A stretch of 64,000 nucleotides of DNA from Sulfurospirillum barnesii SES-3 (GTDB lineage Bacteria; Campylobacterota; Campylobacteria; Campylobacterales; Sulfurospirillaceae): the NCBI RefSeq assembly GCF_000265295.1, contig NC_018002.1, positions 1,550,001-1,614,000 of the forward strand. The letters run 5' to 3'. The notes under the pieces were generated by a model. It had not been told where the DNA came from. It saw only the letters and a program-made list of their open reading frames with translations, and did not search any database. Each line of letters opens with the position of its first letter. Position 1 is the first letter of the stretch. Both the position numbers and the translations under genes were made by a program. Shown piece after piece: positions 16,948 through 33,156 of this stretch.

Positions 16948-17583
16948 CTAGGCGTCAAGAAGCCACGCTCTAGCTGTTTGCATGGTTTCAAAATAGGCCA
17001 TTTTAGGTTTTGATATCAAAGCACTTGTCAGTGAAATAGAGAGTTTTTCAAGTTTACTCTGTCCTACAATGGCTACTTTATTGATTTCAGGATGTTTGCC
17101 AAAGCCCTTGAGCACATCATGCCAAATTGCCCCTGCTTCAATTTTTTCCAAACCTCGAACATCGACCAATAAACTCGTAGAAGGTTTTTCATACGTTGAT
17201 AAAAGTGTTTCTAAACGTGCTTCAAACGCTTCTACTTCTTCATGGGTTAAGACACCCTCAATACTTAAATTAGCATACACCTCTTGAAAATTAAGCGCAT
17301 TTGTATGCGAGGTTACAGGTTCACTCTTGGTATCATTCACCTTTGCTGTTTGCTTTTTAGAAGGCTGATACAACAAATGATGCCACAAGGAAAACCCCAC
17401 CAAAGCAACCCCTGCTCCAATATGAAGATTTCGCATGGTCTTAGAATCCATTGCAAATGAGGTTCCAACAACAACCGCCATGGATGTTGTCATACCAATT
17501 TTGGCAACCTCTTTTTTAGTGTCAAGATCCCACTGAATTTCGAGCCGCTTTAGCCCGTTTTTTATCGAATTTTCGTTTTGCAT
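16948..17583 (-). CDS. Membrane-anchored SpoIIAA/STAS-like protein, end of the iron-storage-like operon
   Basis: A 211-residue protein. A basic amphipathic N-terminus (KNGLKRLEIQWDLDTKKEVAK) is followed by one or two membrane segments (MTTSMAVVVGTSFA; LHIGAGVALVGFSLWHHLLY), a linker, and a C-terminal SpoIIAA/STAS-like domain (LLVDVRGLEKIEAGAIWHDV, VAIVGQSKLEKL). ATG at 17583 with AGGA is preferred over an in-frame TTG/ATG further upstream. It overlaps the 42-residue gene and ends just before the palindrome hairpin, so it closes the operon that begins near 25.6 kb. STAS domains bind nucleotides or partner proteins; the role here is unknown. Confidence 0.7.
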   Translation of the reverse strand: MQNENSIKNGLKRLEIQWDLDTKKEVAKIGMTTSMAVVVGTSFAMDSKTMRNLHIGAGVALVGFSLWHHLLYQPSKKQTAKVNDTKSEPVTSHTNALNFQEVYANLSIEGVLTHEEVEAFEARLETLLSTYEKPSTSLLVDVRGLEKIEAGAIWHDVLKGFGKHPEINKVAIVGQSKLEKLSISLTSALISKPKMAYFETMQTARAWLLDA

Positions 17584-17650
17584 TTTTTCCTGTCTCATAG
17601 CCTAATGCTAAGGTTAAAATGGCGGCAATACCTAATGGAATCAAAGGCAT
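17522..17650 (-). CDS. Small membrane/basic protein in the metal ATPase operon (42 aa)
   Basis: A 42-residue frame: hydrophobic N-terminus (MPLIPLGIAAILTLALGYE), then a strongly basic tail (KNAKRKFDKKRAKAARN). AAAGGAG lies 6 bases before the ATG, a near-ideal ribosome site, which supports it as a real gene despite its size. It overlaps the start of the SpoIIAA-like gene in another frame. A TATAAT and a Fur-like palindrome lie directly upstream, so it may be the first gene of an internal iron-responsive transcript. Confidence 0.65.
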   Translation of the reverse strand: MPLIPLGIAAILTLALGYETGKNAKRKFDKKRAKAARNSVGS

Positions 17651-17662
17651 GATAACTCCTTT

Positions 17663-17679
17663 ATGATAAAAGTTATCAT
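17663..17679 (-). promoter_or_regulatory. Fur-like operator over an internal promoter
   Basis: ATGATAAAAGTTATCAT is a perfect 7-3-7 inverted repeat. On the minus strand a TATAAT (17681-17686) ends directly before it, so a repressor bound here would cover the transcription start. It lies 13 bases upstream of the 42-residue gene, after the ATPase gene ends at 17718. Confidence 0.6.
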
Positions 17680-17717
17680 GATTATAAAACCTATCAACTA
17701 AGAGTTAGCTGAGAACG

Positions 17718-19808
17718 CTAGGTTTTAATTTTTTGCATCGAATTAAAGAGCAAACCTATGGTGGTTCCATTGTGTAAAACTGCCGTTGTTATGGGACTAA
17801 ACAGACCCATTGCCGCCCCTGCTAAAATCACACTGTTAATGCCAACGGTAGCATTAAAATTACTGTGTATTCGCTTCATGGTTTTATTGGCAAGTATTTT
17901 TGCTTCAACCACGGCTTCAATATCATCTTTAAGCAGACTAATATCAGCTGTTGCTTTGGCAATATCAGCACCTTTATACATACTAATACCCACATTGGCA
18001 TTCATCAGTGCAGGAGCATCGTTAATCCCATCACCCACAAATGCCACATTTTTCCCAGCTTTTTTAAGTGACTCAACAATACGTGCTTTATCGGTTGGTA
18101 AAAGTTTTGCGTACACCGTATCAATCCCCAATTCTTTGGTTAAAACATCCGCTTTTTCCTGCACATCCCCTGTAAGCATCACCAACTCTTTGACACCCAA
18201 TGTACGTAGTTTTTCCAGAGCACTTTTGGCATTTTCTCTCACACGATCCACCATGGCGATGGTGCCTAAAAGCTTTTTATCATACGCAATATAGAGCAAA
18301 ATTTTTCCATTTTCCATGCACGTTTTTAACTTTGTTTCATGTATTTTAAAAGACACACCCTCATCTTCTTCCAAGAAGTGTCTGCTTCCAATAATGGCTT
18401 CTTTGCCTTTAATATGTGTTTTAACACCATGCGCTACGATAAATTCAACCTCTTCATGGTGCATATGCACAAATCCACGCTCCTTAGCAGCTTTTACCAC
18501 CGCTTCTGCTACAGGATGGAAGTAATGCTCTTCCGCACTGGCTGTTAAATTTAAAATAGCATCTTCATCCCATGCTTTATCAAACGAACAAATTTCAACT
18601 ACTTCCAGTTCACCATGGGTAAGTGTTCCTGTTTTATCAAAGACAAAGGTGTCCACATTCGCCAACGCTTCTAATGCTTTTGCCCCTTTGATTAAAATGC
18701 CATCACGCCCCGCAATAGAGAGGGAATTTTTAAACGCTACAGGTGTTGCAAGTTTAAGAGCACACGAATAATCCGCTTGTAAAACAGCTGCTACACTTGC
18801 CATATCACGACGAATGGCGTAGGAGAGCCCTGCAAGACCCAATGTCACAGGAACAAGTTTATCGGCTAAACGTGTGGCTTTCAGCCCAATGGAAGATTTT
18901 TCATCCAGTGAACTTTTAATGTACTGTTTAATGCGCTGGGTTGCGGTATCGTCTCCTACATGTTCTGCCCAAACACGAATACGCCCTGATTCAACGACCG
19001 TACCAGAGATAACACGCTGTCCTCGCTCTCTTTTGACAGGCTCTGCCTCTCCTGTCATAGAGATTTGATTAATAGAAGCAGTTCCATCGACAATATGCCC
19101 ATCAATAGGCACGGTATCACCAGCACCCACAATAATAATATCGCCCACTTTAATGTCTTGGGTTAAAACACGCTTTTGCGTTATTTCACCCTCTTCTTCT
19201 ACTTCAAGCCACGCTTCTTCAACATTAGGTTTGGCTAACTCTTTAATCAAATCATCACTACGATGAACCGTCGTCTCTTCAATGTATTCACCAATTTCAA
19301 GCATAAGGTTCGTGCTATTGGCTGCAGTATAATCCGCACGTGCCAACGAGACGCCCACTGCCATTGCTTCAAGCACTTTAGAGGTTAGCCCCTCACTAAA
19401 AAGTTCATAAATACCCTTTTGCAACAAAGGAAGACTTGCAAGCGTACTTAGGGTAAGTTTGAGTTCTGGCTGAGGAATAAAAGGCTGAAATAAAAGAGCA
19501 CTTCCTGCTCGAAAAACACCTTGCATACTAGGAGCATGCGCCTCTTCGTAACAGCGCAAAAACCCATCATCACACTGCTGATACATCGATAATTCAAGAC
19601 TTTTGACAATCGGCTCAATCACATTGACATCCAAAGTTTCAAAGGAGGCAATGACCAAAGAGCCTGATTTGGCATTGAGCCGTACCTCATCAACATGAAG
19701 CTGTGCTTTTAAATCACGCACCAGCGCACACGCTTCTACACCTTTAAATTCGGAAGAATAGAAACGTAAACGCTTGGGCGTTTGATGCACTAAGCGTAAA
19801 GATTGCAT
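17718..19808 (-). CDS. P1B-type metal ATPase with SCA in place of CPC (FezB-like candidate)
   Basis: Membrane pump of the heavy-metal P-type ATPase family, 696 residues. The A-domain TGEAEPV, phosphorylation site DKTGTLTHG (D about 391), and hinge GDGINDAPALMNANVGI are intact. The metal-site helix reads SCALKLATP (C about 349) instead of CPC. As I recall, SCA marks the poorly studied P1B-6 group, which includes FezB of ferrosomes. The N-terminus has no C-x2-C domain but carries HQTPKRLRFYSS, a K-R-L-R version of the R-x-L-R signature described for ferrosome proteins. Two glycine-zipper proteins and a ferritin-like protein precede it in the operon. Iron is the most likely metal by context. Confidence 0.85.
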   Translation of the reverse strand: MQSLRLVHQTPKRLRFYSSEFKGVEACALVRDLKAQLHVDEVRLNAKSGSLVIASFETLDVNVIEPIVKSLELSMYQQCDDGFLRCYEEAHAPSMQGVFRAGSALLFQPFIPQPELKLTLSTLASLPLLQKGIYELFSEGLTSKVLEAMAVGVSLARADYTAANSTNLMLEIGEYIEETTVHRSDDLIKELAKPNVEEAWLEVEEEGEITQKRVLTQDIKVGDIIIVGAGDTVPIDGHIVDGTASINQISMTGEAEPVKRERGQRVISGTVVESGRIRVWAEHVGDDTATQRIKQYIKSSLDEKSSIGLKATRLADKLVPVTLGLAGLSYAIRRDMASVAAVLQADYSCALKLATPVAFKNSLSIAGRDGILIKGAKALEALANVDTFVFDKTGTLTHGELEVVEICSFDKAWDEDAILNLTASAEEHYFHPVAEAVVKAAKERGFVHMHHEEVEFIVAHGVKTHIKGKEAIIGSRHFLEEDEGVSFKIHETKLKTCMENGKILLYIAYDKKLLGTIAMVDRVRENAKSALEKLRTLGVKELVMLTGDVQEKADVLTKELGIDTVYAKLLPTDKARIVESLKKAGKNVAFVGDGINDAPALMNANVGISMYKGADIAKATADISLLKDDIEAVVEAKILANKTMKRIHSNFNATVGINSVILAGAAMGLFSPITTAVLHNGTTIGLLFNSMQKIKT

Positions 19809-19813
19809 TGAGA

Positions 19814-20092
19814 TTATGACTCACCTGCGGCAAGTTCCGCCTGAGCATCTTCGTAGCGCTCTTTAATCTCTTCAATACCCGCTTGAAAAGCTTGTGTACC
19901 TTTTGCAACCGTTTTAAAAAGTGCTTTTTGTGCTTTTTCATTGGTGAGAAGATACGCACCCAAAGCGCCTACAACTGCACCTATTACAAAATGTTTCGTA
20001 TCAAATGTACCCAACAGAGAATTGACAGAACTAGGCACTGCTGTATTCTCTTTGGCGATATAAGGGTTATTTGCAAGTGATGGTAATTCCAT
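19814..20092 (-). CDS. Small glycine-zipper membrane protein (YtxH-like)
   Basis: A 92-residue protein with one glycine/alanine-rich membrane segment (FVIGAVVGALGAYLLTNEKAQKAL), followed by an amphipathic helix (KGTQAFQAGIEEIKERYEDAQAELAAG). The glycine-zipper-then-charged-helix layout resembles YtxH/GvpP-like proteins and magnetosome-type small membrane proteins, but no family can be assigned surely. AAGGAG precedes the ATG. It sits 5 bases before the SCA-type ATPase and probably acts with it, for example in shaping or coating a membrane compartment. Confidence 0.72.
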   Translation of the reverse strand: MELPSLANNPYIAKENTAVPSSVNSLLGTFDTKHFVIGAVVGALGAYLLTNEKAQKALFKTVAKGTQAFQAGIEEIKERYEDAQAELAAGES

Positions 20093-20097
20093 AATGA

Positions 20098-20445
20098 TTA
20101 TTCTCCTTCTTCTTTCACATCAAGTACATCTTCTGTTTTACATGTAAGCGTTTTCTCATACACTTTTTCCACACCATAAACACCCATTGCACCCAAAGAG
20201 ACGGCTGTGAGTACCCCTAAAATGTTATTGTTTCCTACATAATTAGCAGCTGCAATCGCACTGGCTGTCACAATACCACCTTGAACGGTAAGCTTAAGAC
20301 TGTTTTTAATGGCAGTCTCTTTGTCAATTTTTTCTTGTTTGTACTGATTATAATTTAAAGCACTTGCAACCATTCCAGAAGCTAAGGCGCCACTGATGGC
20401 ATTTCCTACCACGTTTCTAGGTTCCCCTGTATTAATAATCGCCAT
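20098..20445 (-). CDS. Small hydrophobic membrane protein in the metal ATPase operon
   Basis: A 115-residue protein with several alanine/glycine-rich hydrophobic stretches (VVGNAISGALASGMVASALN; GGIVTASAIAAANYVG; LGVLTAVSLGAMGVYGVEKVY) and an acidic tail. The start ATG overlaps the upstream stop (TAATG). I recognise no family. Its glycine-zipper character and place between two other such proteins suggest a compartment or membrane-organising role. A TTACATGTAA copy at 20138 encodes LTCK near the C-terminus. Confidence 0.7.
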   Translation of the reverse strand: MAIINTGEPRNVVGNAISGALASGMVASALNYNQYKQEKIDKETAIKNSLKLTVQGGIVTASAIAAANYVGNNNILGVLTAVSLGAMGVYGVEKVYEKTLTCKTEDVLDVKEEGE

Positions 20446-20648
20446 TACGCACCCTCTTTCGTTTCAATGTCTGAACTTTTTTTAGATTTAATCGACTCTA
20501 GTGTGCCATCAACGCCTTTTTTAACATCACACGCTAACTCTTTGGCTTTATTGACACCACTTTTAATACCTGCTTGAATCTCTTTACGATTGCCTAAAGC
20601 ATACACCACTGCAGCACCCGCTGCGATTCCTGCGATAAATGGTAACAT
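20445..20648 (-). CDS. Small YtxH-like glycine-zipper protein
   Basis: A 67-residue protein with an N-terminal membrane segment (MLPFIAGIAAGAAVVYALG), then a charged helix (GIKSGVNKAKELACDVKKGVDG). This is the same design as the gene at 19814 and the C-terminus of the ferritin-like protein at 20652. AAAAGGAG precedes the ATG. Function unknown; probably part of the same membrane assembly. Confidence 0.7.
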   Translation of the reverse strand: MLPFIAGIAAGAAVVYALGNRKEIQAGIKSGVNKAKELACDVKKGVDGTLESIKSKKSSDIETKEGA

Positions 20649-20651
20649 GAC

Positions 20652-21371
20652 TTACTCCTTTTCTTCGGTTTGTTCTTCGTTTTTCTGACTCATAGAGCCT
20701 ACAACACCTGCACCAATGGCCCCTAGAAGTGCTCCTGCAATAAAGGAGAAATTTGTCCCGCTTAAAAGCTTTAACATCTCTTCTTGGCTCATCTGTCCAC
20801 TGGCAAGTTTTCCTGCCATTGCACTCCATTCACTCATCTGTTCACTCATTTTTTCCATAGAAGGCAAAGCATTCTCCATCATAGGAGTAGAAGCATTAGG
20901 AACTGCTTTAGAAGCGACACCCTCTAAATGGGCTTGAAAAACAGGCAAATGGTTATTATACGATGCTGCTTGCAACCTAAAGAAAACCTCTTGGACATCA
21001 GGATAATTTTGCGTATAGGAGAGTAAGGTATCGTACATTGCAATATTGGAAATTTCAGCCTCAACACCCATTGCATAAGCCTCTTGTAAACTTTTTGGTG
21101 CATCCATCTGACCTACCCAGCGGTTTTCAATCGGCACAATACCATGACACTCAAAAAGCTCAAGCAGTGCAGTTTGATGCCTCTTTTCTGCTTCAATAAT
21201 TGACGCAAACGGTGGCTTTGCACCAAAAGTCTCAATGACACGCATGTACGCTTCATACGCACGGTATTCATCATCCAAAGCCGTTTTTAACGCTTGATGA
21301 AGAATAGGCTCAGGTGCACGTGGGTCAACACCCAATGGCGCTAATGTCTCTTTGTGTTCAATCTCTTCCAT
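20652..21371 (-). CDS. Membrane-anchored ferritin-like diiron protein
   Basis: A 239-residue protein. The N-terminal 165 residues form a ferritin-like four-helix bundle with candidate iron ligands in DDEYRAYEAYMRVIE, IIEAEKRHQTALLELF (E-x2-H type), MGVEAEISNIAMYDTLL and ASYNNHLPVFQAHL; it resembles DUF2202 proteins. The C-terminus adds a methionine-rich linker and a glycine-zipper membrane anchor (FIAGALLGAIGAGVVGSM), an unusual fusion that would fix the bundle on a membrane. It probably oxidises or binds iron moved by the neighbouring ATPases. AAAGGAG precedes the ATG by about 11 bases. Confidence 0.78.
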   Translation of the reverse strand: MEEIEHKETLAPLGVDPRAPEPILHQALKTALDDEYRAYEAYMRVIETFGAKPPFASIIEAEKRHQTALLELFECHGIVPIENRWVGQMDAPKSLQEAYAMGVEAEISNIAMYDTLLSYTQNYPDVQEVFFRLQAASYNNHLPVFQAHLEGVASKAVPNASTPMMENALPSMEKMSEQMSEWSAMAGKLASGQMSQEEMLKLLSGTNFSFIAGALLGAIGAGVVGSMSQKNEEQTEEKE

Positions 21372-21372
21372 C

Positions 21373-21690
21373 TTAGATAAACTCCTTTGAAAGCCGTGTA
21401 ATCATACTTACCAATTCTTCTAAATTTTCACCATGCACCAAATCTTTCCATAAGTGATCGGGAAAAATATGCGCATCGTACTCAATCGTTAAAGAACCAA
21501 CAATTTTATTGATTTTAATACTTTTAATACCCTCAATTTTTTGGGGCAAAGCCTCAATGTCTTGTAATGAAACACTCTCGCCATGGCATTTAATTTTGGG
21601 ATTCACCCGCAAACGAATGCGCCCTTTAATGTGGTGAATGATTGAAAAATAACGCCCTAATTCTACTAATTTTTCTGCCGTAATATCCAT
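21373..21690 (-). CDS. HMA-like small protein with R-x-[LIV]-R signature
   Basis: A 105-residue protein with a domain like the heavy-metal-associated HMA_2 type: HHIKGRIRLRVNPKIK, then a ferredoxin-like beta-alpha-beta pattern (LPQKIEGIKSIKINKIVGSLTIEYD). It has no C-x2-C metal site. The G-R-I-R-L-R motif matches those of the two ATPases at either end of the operon, and small R-x-L-R proteins are reported in ferrosome clusters. ATG at 21690 with AAGGAA is chosen; earlier in-frame starts lack a ribosome site. Confidence 0.75.
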   Translation of the reverse strand: MDITAEKLVELGRYFSIIHHIKGRIRLRVNPKIKCHGESVSLQDIEALPQKIEGIKSIKINKIVGSLTIEYDAHIFPDHLWKDLVHGENLEELVSMITRLSKEFI

Positions 21691-21753
21691 CAACGTTCCT
21701 TCTGAATATGACCATTTTAAAGGGGTACAACTAAATAACAACTTAAAAATTTT

Positions 21754-23928
21754 TTAAGAATTATTATCAACACTCCATGCGATACGAGAAGAGTTTGCCA
21801 TAATACCAACGGTATGCCCAATATGAATCGCACCTGCAGCCACAGGTGAGAGCAACCCAACCCCTGCCAATCCTACACCTACCAAATTGGTTCCTGTTCC
21901 TATCCAATAATTTTGATTAACCACCCCTAAACTTTTCGCAGAAAGATCATAGAGTTTTAAAATATCATGGGGATGACTGTTCGTAATCGCAATATTAGAA
22001 ACCTCAATGGCCGCCTCAGAACCACCACTGGCAAAGGAGATGGCAACATCCGCTTTACTCATGGCTAAGGTATCATTAATGCCATCACCCACCATGACAA
22101 CACTTTTGTAGCGCTCTTTCAGTGCTTCAATAACAGACGCTTTTTCTTCAGGCATGACATTGGCATGAATTTCATCAAAGCCATACGTCTGAGCAAAAGA
22201 GCGTGCAACGACCTCTTCATCACCGCTTAAAAGCACCAAATGTTTCACCCCTCGTTTACGAAGCCCTTGAAGCATTGCAAGGGTTCCCTCTCGTACTTCA
22301 TGCTCTAAACTCAAAAATCCTAAGGCTTTTTGATTGAGGGCAACATACACAACACTTTTTCCCTCTTGTAAGCTCTTTTTGCTTTTGCGTTTAAACGAAG
22401 CGATATCAATGGCATTTTGCTCCATCCACTTTGCATTTCCGACTAAAATTTCACCTGCTTTATCGTGGAGTAAAACGCCCAGACCTGCGTAAATTTCACT
22501 GGGATTTTCTTCTTTACATGTAAAGCCAATTAAATGAGCCGCTTTGGTAATCGCAATGCCGATTGGATGGCTGTTGTGATGCTCTGCTAAGGCAGCATAA
22601 TAGAGCAATGATTCGTACGAAACATCAGGGGCACACACACTACCAATTACATGTGGCACTCCTGTGGTAAGCGTTCCTGTTTTATCAAAACAAAAGACAT
22701 CGCTTTGAGAGACGGCTTCTAGGTAAGCCCCTCCTTTGATTAAAATGCCCTCTTTTGCCCCTCGTGCAATACCTGCACTAATGGCAGTACTGGCAGCTAA
22801 AATGGTCGCACACGGACATGACATCACAATCATCACAGAAAATGCCCGAAGCCATGAACCTGTTAGCAAAAAGGTTCCTGCGGTTAAAAGCGTTCCTAAT
22901 TTTAAAAGTTTAGCAGCCAATTTATCCGCACTCACTTCACTGGGCGATTTTTGCGCCAATGAAGACTCAACACTGGCAATCATCCGTGCCAAATAGGTCT
23001 TCTCACCTGTCGCACTTACCCGAATGTAAATACGCCCTCGTTGTACCAGTGTATTGGCATACACGCTATCTCCAAGCACACGCAATGCAGGCTCACTTCG
23101 ACCGTTAATCGCCGCCTCATCAATCTCAGCACTTCCCTCGCTAATAATCCCATCCACCGCAATTTTTTCACCACTACGTGCTACAACAATATCGCCCTCT
23201 TTAATCTCAGAAACATCCACTTCAAGTTCCACTTCATCCACGACAACATACGCTTTTTTAACCCCTAATGCCATCAATTCATGAATCTGCTTTTTGGAGC
23301 GTTCAGCGGTGTATTCTTCCAGTAACATACCGCCTCGTAAAATGTAAATAATCTCAAATGCGGCTGTGACTTCACCCCCTAAAATGGCACCCAAAAGAGC
23401 CACCGCCATAAAACTGTGCAAACTAAAGCGTCTGGCTTTGACATCTTCTATGGCTTCTTGAAACAAAGGAAGCGCTGCCACAAAGGCAACAATCGCTGTT
23501 ACTGCAGGTAAAAAACTCAAAGCAACAGACGTTGCAAAAAAAGTCTCTACAACAAATAAGCCAAGAGCATACACGGAGAGAAGTGCAAAGCCAACCATTT
23601 TAGAGCGCCATGAAACGGGTGTTTTCGCATCCAAAGACTTCACATGACAGCTGCTACACGCATCGCAATAAAGCGCTGCACTGGCTGAAAGTTCTGGTGT
23701 TTTTATCCTTACATGTAAAGACGTTTGAAGCGCCTCAAGAATGCTCTCAAGAGAGCTCTTTAAAGGATCAAACCTAAGAATCAACGAAGCACACGCACGG
23801 TTAAGCCTTTGCTCAAAGACTAGAGGCGATAAAAGCGTCTCTAAACTGTGTGTTGAAACCGTTTTGAAGGCTTCACATTTTAAACGCACACGCCCTGATA
23901 CAAAGCTTTTAATACTTATTTCATTCAT
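21754..23928 (-). CDS. P1B-type metal ATPase with CPC motif
   Basis: A 724-residue metal-pumping ATPase. The N-terminus has SGRVRLKCEAFKTV (the R-x-R signature) in an HMA-like fold lacking C-x2-C. A cysteine cluster (CDACSSC, about residue 85) precedes the first helices, and CPC lies in the metal-site helix (SCPCATILAA, C371/C373). DKTGTLTTG (D about 415) and GDGINDTLAMSKADV complete the catalytic core; the usual DAPAL after the hinge reads DTLAM. CPC pumps usually carry Cu(I), Zn(II) or related ions, so this enzyme and the SCA-type pump 2 kb downstream may move different metals. The ATG overlaps the Fur-family gene by 8 bases. Confidence 0.88.
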   Translation of the reverse strand: MNEISIKSFVSGRVRLKCEAFKTVSTHSLETLLSPLVFEQRLNRACASLILRFDPLKSSLESILEALQTSLHVRIKTPELSASAALYCDACSSCHVKSLDAKTPVSWRSKMVGFALLSVYALGLFVVETFFATSVALSFLPAVTAIVAFVAALPLFQEAIEDVKARRFSLHSFMAVALLGAILGGEVTAAFEIIYILRGGMLLEEYTAERSKKQIHELMALGVKKAYVVVDEVELEVDVSEIKEGDIVVARSGEKIAVDGIISEGSAEIDEAAINGRSEPALRVLGDSVYANTLVQRGRIYIRVSATGEKTYLARMIASVESSLAQKSPSEVSADKLAAKLLKLGTLLTAGTFLLTGSWLRAFSVMIVMSCPCATILAASTAISAGIARGAKEGILIKGGAYLEAVSQSDVFCFDKTGTLTTGVPHVIGSVCAPDVSYESLLYYAALAEHHNSHPIGIAITKAAHLIGFTCKEENPSEIYAGLGVLLHDKAGEILVGNAKWMEQNAIDIASFKRKSKKSLQEGKSVVYVALNQKALGFLSLEHEVREGTLAMLQGLRKRGVKHLVLLSGDEEVVARSFAQTYGFDEIHANVMPEEKASVIEALKERYKSVVMVGDGINDTLAMSKADVAISFASGGSEAAIEVSNIAITNSHPHDILKLYDLSAKSLGVVNQNYWIGTGTNLVGVGLAGVGLLSPVAAGAIHIGHTVGIMANSSRIAWSVDNNS

Positions 23929-24409
23929 GATGACACCTTTGGCATACGCCGTATAAAATCATAGTGTGATGGATACCTAAAAAACGATGCTGTAAGAGAA
24001 TTTCATCTTGTTCTTTTTCGATATTTGGATGGTAAAATGGTGTAATACTACCACATTTTATACACACAAGATGATCCTGATGAAAACTTCGTTTTAAACG
24101 GTACTGTTTGACATTTTGAGAAGGAGTGATAACCACATGCAACAAATCAAGCTTTTCTAAAAAAGCTAAAAGCGTATAAAGGTGTGTTAAAGAGATACGT
24201 GTATGATACACCTCTTTAAGTACCTTTTGAATTTCAAAAGCACTGAGGTAGGCTGTGCTTGAAAAAAGAGCTTTAAGTAACTTCTCTTGACGATTGGAAT
24301 AACGAAGTTTTAAACGCATGGTGATTTTTTGAAAATGGCTATAAAAGGTTTCAAAGCTTGCAGAAGAGTCATGCTCTTCTGCAACCAAACAATGCACTTT
24401 ACCTGACAC
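23921..24409 (-). CDS. Fur-family metalloregulator
   Basis: DNA-binding repressor of the Fur/PerR/Zur family, about 162 residues. The winged helix is at residues 35-100 (LRYSNRQEKLLKALFSS, RISLTHLYTLLAFLEKLDLL). The dimer domain has HLVCIKCGSI and a second C-x2-C (GVCQRCHHE) for structural zinc. The start is uncertain: a GTG at 24409 is used because the helix before LRYSN is part of the fold, but an ATG exists at residue 31. It lies 9 bases after the porin stop and overlaps the CPC-ATPase start, so it probably controls this operon and itself. Confidence 0.85.
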   Translation of the reverse strand: MSGKVHCLVAEEHDSSASFETFYSHFQKITMRLKLRYSNRQEKLLKALFSSTAYLSAFEIQKVLKEVYHTRISLTHLYTLLAFLEKLDLLHVVITPSQNVKQYRLKRSFHQDHLVCIKCGSITPFYHPNIEKEQDEILLQHRFLGIHHTMILYGVCQRCHHE

Positions 24410-24418
24410 GTATTACAC

Positions 24419-25585
24419 TTAAAACGTGTACTTAACTAAGGCTTTAAGCGCATTATAGCTATCGGCTTTGGTGTCATTATCGACATTAACATAGATTAAA
24501 GAGGCTTCAAGGTTTTTAATAATTTCATACCCAACACTCACATCCAACTCTTTTTCTTTCACTGAGCTGCTAATCCCATCGTCGTATTTACTTTGCGCAT
24601 ACAAAGCACCCAGCTTCACACCCTCAATTTCATACGAAATACTTGCATAGGGTGTTTTAGCATTGGCATCAAAGACATGATTGCCCTCTTCCAATGGTGA
24701 TTGATCGCCAAAACTCTCCAAACCTGCAAGGCCATCTTTATCGGTTTTCATATACCCTAGGGCAAGGCTTACACCTGAAAACTCAAATCCTTGTTCAACT
24801 TGCATAAAAGAACCATCTTCTACCTTAACATTGACGGTTCCACCCAAACCATCATCTTCTTCGGTGGTGGCATCGCTATTGACTTTAGCATAATGAAGCA
24901 TGGTGGATGTTTTAAGCGCATCGCTTAACTCAAAATTAAGGGTTGCCTTTGCACCGTACGCTGTAAATACATTATCCCCATAATAAATGTACGGATTAAG
25001 CTCCAACATCTCTATTGGTGTATACACTGCTTCGAGCATATAAATACCATCATTGTCGTTCATTTTTGCAAATTTTTCAGAAATTTCATCAAAACCAACC
25101 ACGGATTGTTTACGTGCCCATGCCATGTTTACCACAAGGTTTTCAATAGCACTAAGTTCTGCACTCACACCCTCAATATAATCGGTCAACCAATTGAAGT
25201 CCACCTCTTGACGACCCAAAACAATGTGCCCAACGCCCTCATGTTCATACTTTATAAATGCTTCGGAGAGAACCGCATTGTCTTCAATCGCACCCTCAGC
25301 ATCGTACGCATCGTTTTTATCATCCAATTTGACACTGCCAAAAGCTTTTAAGCCTACGCTAATGCCATAAAGAGGTGCCGTTTGAAAGCCAACTTCGCCA
25401 AAACCATTGGCAAAACCATCATCTTTGGTACCACCTTTTTTATTGAAGTATTGTCCATAAGCACCTACACTTGCAGTTAACTCACCTTTGGTAAATGCCT
25501 CTTCCAAATTACTCGCATCATCCGCATACGACACACTCATACCCACTATCAGACTTAAGACGACTCTTGAAAATGCTGTTCGCAT
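24419..25585 (-). CDS. Outer-membrane porin, Campylobacterota Opr type
   Basis: A 388-residue beta-barrel. A signal peptide (SRVVLSLIVGMSVSYADD) is followed by alternating strands typical of Campylobacterota Opr/OprD-like porins (GLKAFGSVKL, HIVLGRQEVDFNWLTDYIEGV) and a terminal phenylalanine (ALVKYTF) for BAM recognition. A Fur-like box 21 bases upstream of the ATG predicts iron control. As first gene before the regulator and ATPases it may admit the substrate metal. Specificity cannot be read from sequence. Confidence 0.83.
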   Translation of the reverse strand: MRTAFSRVVLSLIVGMSVSYADDASNLEEAFTKGELTASVGAYGQYFNKKGGTKDDGFANGFGEVGFQTAPLYGISVGLKAFGSVKLDDKNDAYDAEGAIEDNAVLSEAFIKYEHEGVGHIVLGRQEVDFNWLTDYIEGVSAELSAIENLVVNMAWARKQSVVGFDEISEKFAKMNDNDGIYMLEAVYTPIEMLELNPYIYYGDNVFTAYGAKATLNFELSDALKTSTMLHYAKVNSDATTEEDDGLGGTVNVKVEDGSFMQVEQGFEFSGVSLALGYMKTDKDGLAGLESFGDQSPLEEGNHVFDANAKTPYASISYEIEGVKLGALYAQSKYDDGISSSVKEKELDVSVGYEIIKNLEASLIYVNVDNDTKADSYNALKALVKYTF

Positions 25586-25605: not shown

Positions 25606-25620
25606 TGATAATTATTATCG
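25606..25620 (-). promoter_or_regulatory. Fur-like box upstream of the porin-led operon
   Basis: GATAATTATTATC (25607-25619) is a perfect 6-1-6 repeat, the core of the classical Fur box GATAATNATTATC. It lies about 20 bases before the porin ATG, where it would block the promoter or early elongation of the whole 25.6-16.9 kb operon. Confidence 0.6.
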
Positions 25621-25644: not shown

Positions 25645-25671
25645 CTATCATAACATGATAGTAATTATCAT
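25645..25671. promoter_or_regulatory. Composite operator with three ATGATA-type half-sites
   Basis: CTATCAT-AAC-ATGATAG is a perfect 7-3-7 everted repeat, and its right half shares bases with ATGATAG-TAA-TTATCAT, a 7-3-7 repeat with one mismatch. The array overlaps the stop of the gene at 25668 and lies 60-86 bases upstream of the porin start. Overlapping half-sites suit a second repressor dimer or extended binding. Confidence 0.5.
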
Positions 25672-26111
25672 GTTATTCGTTTATGCCAATACAGTCGTAA
25701 ACATACCGTCAGAAAAAAAAGTCCAATAAACCCCAAAGCAAGTCCACCCATGATACGAAAAGCACGCTCTTTTTGAGAGTGTGCTATTTTTTTAAATCCC
25801 TCTTTTGGAGCCATGCCCTCTTCCACAACATCTTGATCACCTATGTACAAATAGACCCAATACGACTCCTCAGGAATCTTGACATGTAAGGGTTTCCCCC
25901 CTTCTAAAAAAGCTTCGAAAATCACACGTTTATCGATCATAGAGATCAGTGCTACCTTATTTCCCTCTAACCTTTTTTGAGAGCCTTTCATCTTTCCCTC
26001 AATGGCTATCATGTCGTTTTCAAGCGGTGTTATGAGAAGATTAATGCCCTCTATTTTATGTGCCAAAAGGTGTGTACACAGTACAAGAATACACCACATT
26101 TTAATAGCCAT
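25668..26111 (-). CDS. Small exported protein anchored by a C-terminal helix, unknown function
   Basis: A 147-residue protein with a signal-like N-terminus (MWCILVLCTHLLAHK), a periplasmic beta-rich part, and a C-terminal membrane helix (IMGGLALGFIGLFFLTVCLRLYW) ending in basic residues. ATG at 26111 with AAAGGAG 6 bases before it is chosen; it overlaps the PepSY gene by 11 bases. It belongs to the TonB receptor/PepSY transcript, so an accessory role in ferric-chelate processing is likely but unproven. Confidence 0.7.
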   Translation of the reverse strand: MAIKMWCILVLCTHLLAHKIEGINLLITPLENDMIAIEGKMKGSQKRLEGNKVALISMIDKRVIFEAFLEGGKPLHVKIPEESYWVYLYIGDQDVVEEGMAPKEGFKKIAHSQKERAFRIMGGLALGFIGLFFLTVCLRLYWHKRIT

Positions 26112-27660
26112 TAAACACTCCTTTGCGCTCATAACGGTAGAAAAGCTCTTTTTTTTCTACCCATTTGGCTACATACACTAAAATGCCTGCACTAAAAAGA
26201 AACAGGACATCCATAGCAAAAAGTACCCACGCCTTTTGCGAAAAACTCTCCCAGATAAAAAAACCACTTTTTAAACCATGAAAGAGCACCCCGCCTATTA
26301 AAAGCCATGCACTGCTTCGAAGCATGAGTGCCATACTGCGTACCACAGAGCGTTCAAAGACACTATAAAAGAGCCAAAACGACCAAAAAGCATAAAACGC
26401 TCCTCGTACCCACACCTCTTTATCAAAAAGCTCCATGGGAAGAAGCCAATGCAAACAGACCACCAATGCGCTAGAAGGCACAATACCAATCAATACCGCA
26501 AGGCTTACACGGTTGCATATATCACCAAACCAACCCTCTTGCACCAATGTTTTCTCTGCCCAAAGAAAATACCCACTTACCAAAGAAAATGCCAACACAC
26601 CTCCAAAAAATATCAACACAAGGCGTAATCCCACTGTTTCATCGGGAACAAAATGAAGAAAATAGAGCAAAGAGAGGGTTTGATTGATTCCATGGCTTTG
26701 TTCGATCATTTTTTTCTCCACCACGGCTCCCGTGCTTGCCTCAATGGTGATACTTAAACGATTCACACGCCCAGTACGTGCCCTATTTTCTTCATCAAAT
26801 CCTCGAAACAATACCTTTGCACCCTCTTTTCCATAGTGATACAGTGTTGCATTACTGATATTAAGCATTGGGTAATGCTCCTTCGCACGCAGCAGTAAAG
26901 CAGAAAAAGGAAGCATATTCGCATCGTTTTCTAAGCGTTGGTATTTGGGTTGTGCAAATAAAATAGGCGCAACCAATTGGCGCATATTGCTTATTTTTCC
27001 CTCACTCATGCTCCATGCATACGGGGATGATGTAGAGAGCATTAACCCCAAAAAAGCCCCACTTAGCGCAAAAACAAGGGCATAAGGAATCACCCCAAGC
27101 CCTGTTATCTTATGCCACGAAAGCCATCGTTGTTTCCAACTTTTTTGAAGACGGGGTTGTGTTTTTTTCTTTTTTAAAAAGAGCCAAAATCCACCCACAC
27201 TTAAAAATAAAATGCCCACACTCATGATACCCATTAAAGGCATACCAATACGAGGAATTACTCCACCAGTATGAAGTTCATTGAAAAATAATGAGATAAG
27301 ATTTTCTTCTCTAGGAACGCTTAGAACCTCATTGGTTAAGGGATTGAGGTAAAGGCTGTTTTGTGCTTGTGAAGAAATTTTAAGCAGCGGATCACGAAAG
27401 CTGGGCAAGGTAATTTCAACGGGTTTATCGCCTAAAAATTGGTGCGCTCTTAAGAGTTCCTCCAAACGTGTATCAATGTTAAACGCATGGTTTTGTGCAG
27501 GAACAAAATGACGTGAGGGGGACTCCCACACTTTAAGGTAGGGCATCAAAAATGTGAGTGTCCCAAAATAGGTACTCATGTAAAACACCCATAAAACCAA
27601 CAAGCCAATGATGGTGTGTGAACGATGTAGGTATTTAAAAATCAGTGATTTCTCAAGCAT
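26101..27660 (-). CDS. PepSY-type inner-membrane protein of ferric-chelate uptake
   Basis: A PepSY-associated membrane protein of about 519 residues. The first helix carries the family motif HRSHTIIGLLVLWVFYMSTYFGTL, periplasmic PepSY-like parts follow, then about four further helices and a C-terminal membrane bundle. Conserved histidines in helices (LHRSHT, LSWHKITGLG, SLLYFLHF) may hold haem. Family members encoded with TonB receptors (such as FoxB/PiuB) reduce or process ferric siderophores in the periplasm. ATG at 27660 with AGGAG is preferred over the GTG 6 bases earlier. Confidence 0.82.
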   Translation of the reverse strand: MLEKSLIFKYLHRSHTIIGLLVLWVFYMSTYFGTLTFLMPYLKVWESPSRHFVPAQNHAFNIDTRLEELLRAHQFLGDKPVEITLPSFRDPLLKISSQAQNSLYLNPLTNEVLSVPREENLISLFFNELHTGGVIPRIGMPLMGIMSVGILFLSVGGFWLFLKKKKTQPRLQKSWKQRWLSWHKITGLGVIPYALVFALSGAFLGLMLSTSSPYAWSMSEGKISNMRQLVAPILFAQPKYQRLENDANMLPFSALLLRAKEHYPMLNISNATLYHYGKEGAKVLFRGFDEENRARTGRVNRLSITIEASTGAVVEKKMIEQSHGINQTLSLLYFLHFVPDETVGLRLVLIFFGGVLAFSLVSGYFLWAEKTLVQEGWFGDICNRVSLAVLIGIVPSSALVVCLHWLLPMELFDKEVWVRGAFYAFWSFWLFYSVFERSVVRSMALMLRSSAWLLIGGVLFHGLKSGFFIWESFSQKAWVLFAMDVLFLFSAGILVYVAKWVEKKELFYRYERKGVFNGY

Positions 27661-27668
27661 ACACACTC

Positions 27669-29997: not shown

Positions 29998-30014
29998 ATG
30001 ATATTTGTTATCAT
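29998..30014. promoter_or_regulatory. Fur-like operator between receptor and response regulator
   Basis: ATGATATTTGTTATCAT is a 7-3-7 palindrome with one mismatch, in the 92-base gap between the divergent receptor (start 29971) and response regulator (start 30064). It could control one or both. Confidence 0.55.
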
Positions 30015-32718: not shown

Positions 32719-33156
32719 TTACGCAAGCGTTGCTTTGTACATCCAAAGTTGTTTTTCAATTTCAGCCACTTTGTCATCTGCCATATTCATGGTTGTTGTA
32801 TCACGAACTTCTTCGGCTAATTTTGAAAGTGTGCTCCACTGAGCAAGCATTTTTTCCAACGCCTTCACCACATTTCCAATGACTGCTACCGCATCAAAGG
32901 AGTTTTTACTCTCTTCTTTAAGGGTTGTTTTTGCCATAATCTCAGAAAGTGTGACAAGCGGTGTGCCACCTAATTGTAAAATACGCTCTGCTGTATCATC
33001 AAAAACCTCTGACATGGCATCGTAGAGTTTTTCTGTCATTTCATGAACAGGGAAAAACTGCATTCCTTTAACATTCCAATGGTAATTATGGAATGTAACG
33101 TATAAAATATGACTATCAGCTTGAATCTCTTGTAATTGTTTAATAACACTTGACAT
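32719..33156 (-). CDS. dps: Dps-family iron-binding DNA-protection protein
   Basis: A 145-residue mini-ferritin that oxidises Fe(II) with peroxide and stores it in a 12-mer. The ferroxidase motif is HNYHWNVKGMQFFPVHEMTEKLYD followed by DDTAERILQLGGTPL. No long basic tail is seen, so DNA binding may be weak, as in Campylobacter Dps. TAAGGAG precedes the ATG. A TATAAT (33192-33197, minus) and an AATAATTATT palindrome (33218-33227) upstream suggest a PerR/Fur-controlled promoter. Confidence 0.93.
   Translation of the reverse strand: MSSVIKQLQEIQADSHILYVTFHNYHWNVKGMQFFPVHEMTEKLYDAMSEVFDDTAERILQLGGTPLVTLSEIMAKTTLKEESKNSFDAVAVIGNVVKALEKMLAQWSTLSKLAEEVRDTTTMNMADDKVAEIEKQLWMYKATLA

Follow-up and report, generated by a model that had tools for sequence, protein, structure and literature searches.

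Ferrosomes, a class of organelle discovered recently, hold iron stores wrapped in membrane. Among fez operons, those of D. magneticus and S. putrefaciens carry a gene for a P1B-6 ATPase, and the fez genes of S. putrefaciens number six. R. palustris builds its ferrosomes from a run of six adjacent fez genes (PMC12016538) that respond jointly with iron genes (PMC6879726), and in C. difficile both fezA and fezB are repressed by Fur (PMC12574912). The ferrosome protein FezC is a haem cytochrome of the DUF4405-like kind (PMC10979944).

We analysed a window of 64,000 nucleotides, covering positions 1550001-1614000 of the 2.51-Mb single-contig genome of Sulfurospirillum barnesii SES-3. A block of genes on the minus strand (25585-16948) encodes, in order, an Opr-type porin, a Fur-family regulator, a P1B ATPase that we call ATP2, an HMA_2 protein, a ferritin-like protein, proteins of 67, 115 and 92 aa, a FezB-type P1B ATPase that we call ATP1, and proteins of 42 and 211 aa (Table 1). 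Spacing between these genes ranges from an overlap to 10 bp, except for gaps of 64-68 bp ahead of 21690 and 17650, and the operon is therefore likely to be read as one or two transcripts. The first-pass annotation of this DNA had described a ferrosome-like cluster here, and all the genes that it named were recovered on the minus strand, in compact arrangement, by sequence and by Pfam and NCBIfam matches, including the Fur-family regulator and the HMA-like protein; its list lacked the 42-aa gene, the FezC-like half of the last gene, the MamC homology and the Fur boxes. A search by sequence for relatives of solved structure returned generic P-type ATPases and a weak match to MJ0754 alone.

Table 1. 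Genes and putative regulatory sites of the minus-strand block, with window positions.
Feature	Position	Strand	Evidence
Opr-family porin, first gene of block	24419..25585	-	NF033922 8e-141
Fur-family regulator, divergent paralogue	23921..24409	-	PF01475 5e-20
ATP2, second P1B-type ATPase, CPC, GRVRL, accessory pump	21754..23928	-	P1B profile; own clade 100/100
HMA_2-domain protein, GRIRLR, ATG start at 21690	21373..21690	-	PF19991 1e-9
Ferritin-like protein, C-terminal glycine-rich membrane helix	20652..21371	-	AlphaFold four-helix bundle; Foldseek
Small glycine-rich membrane protein, 67 aa	20445..20648	-	family member in 40/40 loci
MamC-like two-helix membrane protein, 115 aa	20098..20445	-	NF038051 MamC 4.8e-6
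YtxH-like glycine-zipper membrane protein, 92 aa	19814..20092	-	PF12732 E=0.0034
ATP1, FezB-type P1B ATPase, KRLRF, DYSCALKLATP replacing CPC	17718..19808	-	P1B profile, motif, tree
Single-helix protein, 42 aa, short conserved gene	17522..17650	-	sequence; homologues in 25 loci
FezC/DUF4405-like two-helix membrane protein fused to C-terminal SpoIIAA-like domain	16948..17583	-	PF11964 1.6e-15
Fur-box-like palindrome upstream of operon	25656..25670	.	1 mismatch to TGATAATNATTATCA
Second Fur-box-like palindrome, 20 bp before porin start	25606..25620	.	1 mismatch
Internal Fur-box-like palindrome before FezC-like genes	17664..17678	.	2 mismatches

The block is probably a fez-type operon, a reading proposed in the first-pass annotation and favoured by the pump tree, the motifs, the gene order, the Fur boxes and the exclusive linkage of its genes. 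Compared by description with the fez operons of D. magneticus, R. palustris, S. putrefaciens and C. difficile, the S. barnesii cluster likewise combines a P1B ATPase, a putative FezC/DUF4405-like protein and small membrane proteins in a compact operon with candidate Fur sites. Unlike those operons, it adds a ferritin-like protein, a second pump with CPC, a Fur paralogue and a fusion of the FezC-like protein to a SpoIIAA-like domain. The description of the cluster as a larger variant holds for the second pump, which is an accessory extra, but not for the ferritin-like gene, which is normal in Campylobacterota clusters.

Of the 347 Campylobacterota genomes sampled, 121 had an orthologue of ATP1, taken as a protein with about 46% identity or higher along most of its sequence, so that over a third of them carry a FezB-like gene. 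Forty neighbourhoods shared a single order: HMA_2, ferritin-like, the 67-, 115- and 92-aa types, ATP1, often the 42-aa gene, and a FezC-like gene. The same cluster was present in named Campylobacter and Arcobacter records. The Opr-type porin precedes the cluster in four relatives from its own genus and lies outside this wider core.

Both ATPases of the block are of the P1B type and scored above the cut-off of TIGR01525 (NCBIfam). As had been reported, ATP1 carries SCALKLATP and has no CPC at that position, and ATP2 does carry CPC; FezB-type pumps have DY[SA]C..[KR]L instead of CPC. In a phylogenetic tree whose references were CopA and ZntA of E. coli together with two paralogues from the S. 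barnesii genome, 35 FezB-type proteins (from Campylobacterota, Alpha-, Beta- and Gammaproteobacteria and Desulfonema) lay on one side of a branch with a support of 100/99, apart from CopA and ZntA. The latter paired with the genome's own Cu- and Zn-type pumps (support of 98/98). Grouping of ATP1 with zinc or copper exporters had been named beforehand as the result that would speak against a ferrosome cluster; tested against E. coli CopA and ZntA, ATP1 shares their P1B catalytic core (32-33% identity to the genome's own paralogues) but belongs to a separate clade, with SCALKL rather than CPC.

Sites resembling Fur boxes lie upstream of the operon and before the FezC-like genes (Table 1). Eight such sites with up to 2 mismatches were present in the window, as against 0.53 expected, and none of 100 shuffles reached 8. 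In the stretch that follows ATP1 in the 40 loci, exact Fur boxes were found in 7 and boxes with up to 1 mismatch in 11, against 0.0 and 0.0 after shuffling. The regulator encoded in the operon scored 84.9 bits against TransRegFurHelico, whose cut-off is 200, and is one of five Fur-family loci in the genome. Just upstream of the block are a TonB-dependent receptor (PF00593; 27968-29971) and a PepSY_TM protein (26101-27666), which would place the cluster in an iron regulon; the region around the cluster looks like an iron-uptake regulon. Further Fur-box-like sites were seen at 29999, 37795, 46632 and 49676, including before a receptor-sized gene of 654 aa, a gene of 273 aa and an ExbB-like gene of 144 aa.

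These observations bear on whether the block could instead be a metal efflux operon, in which both ATPases would rid the cytosol of surplus Fe(II), Zn(II) or some other metal by moving it to the periplasm, with the small proteins as accessory chaperones. Both pumps do score as P1B heavy-metal ATPases, and the CPC of ATP2, along with its CxxC, is typical of soft-metal exporters. The tree, however, puts both pumps apart from CopA and ZntA, the Fur-box-like sites near the promoters point to expression during iron starvation, and ferritin-like, MamC-like and glycine-zipper proteins linked to a pump would be unusual for efflux. We regard an efflux operon as unlikely, and continue with the fez-type reading.

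The 21373 protein was the sole HMA_2 match in the genome at E<=0.001. It had been noted that this protein and both ATPases share an N-terminal R-x-[LVI]-R signature. Taken literally, that motif was absent or at chance level; what KRLRF, GRVRL and GRIRLR have in common is R-[LVI]-R, and we put R-[LVIA]-R in its place. Counted with the pattern R-[LVIAYT]-[RK]-[FYLVIRA] within the N-terminal 75 residues, the motif was present in 44 of 45 FezB-type (ATP1) proteins, 11 of 11 ATP2-type proteins and 40 of 40 HMA proteins, compared to about 10-12% of shuffled N-termini, and five other families of the cluster gave 0 or 1 match each.

The 115-aa protein matched the profile of magnetosome MamC (Mms13) across both helices and the intervening loop, with a score of 26.8 bits, below the curated equivalog cut-off of 100, and is therefore a homologue and not MamC proper. 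NF038051 was matched by 21 of 34 members of the 115-aa family at E <= 0.1, the best being that of the Desulfonema cluster (3.2e-20, 72 bits). The genomes of S. barnesii, Desulfonema magnum, Shewanella fidelis, Vibrio harveyi and Ferrimonas kyonanensis each contained a lone MamC match, situated at the cluster, and the same search gave 0 matches in 14 control genomes; a low-complexity artefact was rejected on this distribution. Three further genomes bearing the cluster had no match to the profile, and the MamC match is thus not universal in the family. By sequence, the 115-aa protein is a remote homologue of MamC which, unlike MamC itself, is encoded within FezB-type clusters, in genomes that have no other match to MamC. 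In AMB-1, Asp70 of MamC binds iron (PMC6584501). A literature search that left out the original ferrosome papers found no statement linking MamC to ferrosome clusters, and the novelty of the link is uncertain. The 92-aa YtxH-like protein has homologues in the Vibrio, Azospirillum and Cereibacter clusters (6e-16 to 1e-17).

In most genomes, ATP1 is followed by a protein of 70-120 aa with what look like two membrane helices. Its counterpart in the window is 211 aa long and ends in a SpoIIAA-like domain, a fusion also present in two other genomes. The product had been annotated as SpoIIAA-like, which is correct for that domain (Table 1) but overlooked the short FezC/DUF4405-like N-terminal half. 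His54 and His68 were invariant in 19 sequences of the FezC-like family, including those from Desulfonema and a Methylocystaceae MAG, and DUF4405 matches in the family were weak (16 of 19 members; best E 0.0017, window 0.078). From these weak scores, the protein is likely to be FezC.

The ferritin-like identity assigned to the 20652 protein was borne out by structure prediction. AlphaFold models from 15 sequences gave a four-helix bundle, with most of the helices at >90 pLDDT and the C-terminal helix at low confidence, and Foldseek retrieved FtnA and bacterioferritins (TM of 0.76 to FtnA, normalised to the target). A search for DUF2202 had been proposed; the window protein had no DUF2202 match in Pfam, the only match being Rubrerythrin at E=0.009, and a PF09968 profile search of the whole genome found none, but 8 of 15 members of the alignment did match DUF2202 (best 3.5e-10). 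With no direct match from either the protein or the genome search, DUF2202 was rejected as the family of the window protein. A search of the available papers for DUF2202 together with P-type ATPases found nothing. Like ferritins, DUF2202 proteins and bacterioferritins, the protein has the four-helix bundle and most of the ligands, with E35, E62, H65, E106 and H141 kept in most members of the family. Unlike them, it has a C-terminal membrane helix and Tyr138 at the helix-4 position where Glu is expected (Y138xxH141), and it lacks the complete di-iron ligand set E, ExxH, E, ExxH. Residues E62 and H65 were kept in 25 of 38 aligned members (loci L037-L075) and lost in about a third, Campylobacter-type ones included. 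Because of Tyr138 and this loss, a classical ferroxidase centre is not assured by the sequences.

The ferritin-like gene was found in 105 of the 347 Campylobacterota genomes, and all 105 also carried ATP1, within 5 kb on the same contig, so the gene is not the special feature of this genome that it had been taken for. Sixteen genomes with ATP1 had no ferritin-like protein detected at the threshold used, and some of these yielded divergent copies by profile search. This strict linkage to the FezB-like gene, along with a ferritin fold attached to a membrane helix, would also fit an iron store that is fixed to the membrane without any vesicle. The anchored ferritin-like protein would then gather iron at the cytosolic side, and exchange of metal and electrons with it would be all that the pumps and the cytochrome do. 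Against this stand the gammaproteobacterial clusters, which retain the FezB-like core but have a different protein instead of the ferritin-like one, and hence the ferritin-like gene is not the centre of the cluster; moreover, the metal-ligand set is lost in part of the family. We find a store of this kind very unlikely, and retain the ferrosome-type operon.

ATP2 formed a clade of its own in the tree (support of 100/100), its exact placement being unsure because of long branches; lying apart from CopA and ZntA, it received no support from the tree as a Cu exporter. Cys91 and Cys94 of the CxxC, and His702 and His705, are invariant. Its orthologues occurred in 14 of the 347 Campylobacterota genomes, spread over six genera, and on this evidence ATP2 is accessory to the fez-type core. 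That the core makes ferrosomes and ATP2 is an unrelated Cu/Zn pump adjoining it by chance, as its CPC motif and its absence from most fez-type clusters might suggest, is very unlikely, given that ATP2 is immediately upstream of the core in 14 of 14 genomes bearing it, from six genera, and shares the R-[LVIA]-R motif in 11 of 11 sequences.

For the fez-type operon, we infer vesicle formation, the metal, the direction of transport and the role of each protein as follows. When iron is scarce, Fur would release the promoters before 25585 and 17650, where its candidate sites were seen. The small glycine-zipper, YtxH-like and MamC-like proteins may enter or shape a membrane vesicle, into which the FezB-like ATPase would move Fe(II) from the cytosol. 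Electron transfer by the FezC-like protein, with its two histidines, could set the Fe(II)/Fe(III) state, and the MamC-like loop and the membrane-anchored ferritin-like protein may handle or nucleate iron. The HMA_2 protein would be a partner of the pumps through the R-[LVIA]-R domain, and ATP2 may transport a second metal through that membrane, or iron when conditions differ.

We suggest tentatively, as a proposal that falls a little short of an even chance, that ferrosome-type clusters of several phyla encode a MamC homologue, so that a membrane component for handling mineral is common to the two iron-mineral organelles, and that the Campylobacterota ferrosome is equipped with a ferritin and, in some species, with two pumps. 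If true, the MamC homologue would link two iron organelles regarded as independent of each other and provide an entry point to iron mineralisation inside ferrosomes. The strictly linked ferritin-fold protein and the second pump are directly testable parts. In view of the role of ferrosomes in colonisation by C. difficile, the presence of such clusters in bacteria related to Campylobacter deserves testing; in the literature, as far as its text was available, ferrosomes and Campylobacter appear together in passing mentions only. Besides the ferritin-like protein of the cluster, the genome has two Ferritin-family (PF00210) genes, including one in the window at 32722-33144 that is Dps-like in sequence.

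When named genomes were scanned with DY[SA]C[AP][LV][KR]L, 432 stretches were found and the best 80 were examined. These 80 included Vibrio, Photobacterium, Shewanella, Ferrimonas, Enterobacterales, Azotobacter, Thauera, Desulfonema and Campylobacter majalis, and contained no species with proven ferrosomes. Maps from the best 80 of 432 showed the order HMA, MamC-like, YtxH-like, ATPase in clusters outside Campylobacterota; in Vibrio, Shewanella, Enterobacterales, Azotobacter and Betaproteobacteria, HMA is followed by the ferritin-like or a different protein, then by the small, MamC-like and YtxH-like proteins and the FezB-like ATPase. A ferritin-like protein was also present in the betaproteobacterial and Azotobacter clusters, and its slot in Vibrio/Shewanella-type clusters (L083-L119) was occupied by a protein of 200-310 aa with a YtxH-like part. 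The latter clusters have a divergent HMA gene upstream, and in L078 the protein in the ferritin slot is rich in Met and Pro.

Clusters of the FezB type were also found on plasmids of Azospirillum, Vibrio and Cereibacter (L077-L079) and of Arcobacter (L080, CP129951.1), the last with an integrase gene about 4 kb away. The Azospirillum plasmid cluster consists of six genes in a similar order, ending in an ATPase 52% identical to ATP1. Since such clusters occur on plasmids, one of them near an integrase, the system can probably move between bacteria. Plasmids of Priestia megaterium (L081, NZ_CP071477.1, 3138-6674) encode a P1B ATPase that carries DFICGIKLSTATA and is bordered by three HMA2 proteins, and this locus is possibly a Bacillota relative of the FezB-type system.
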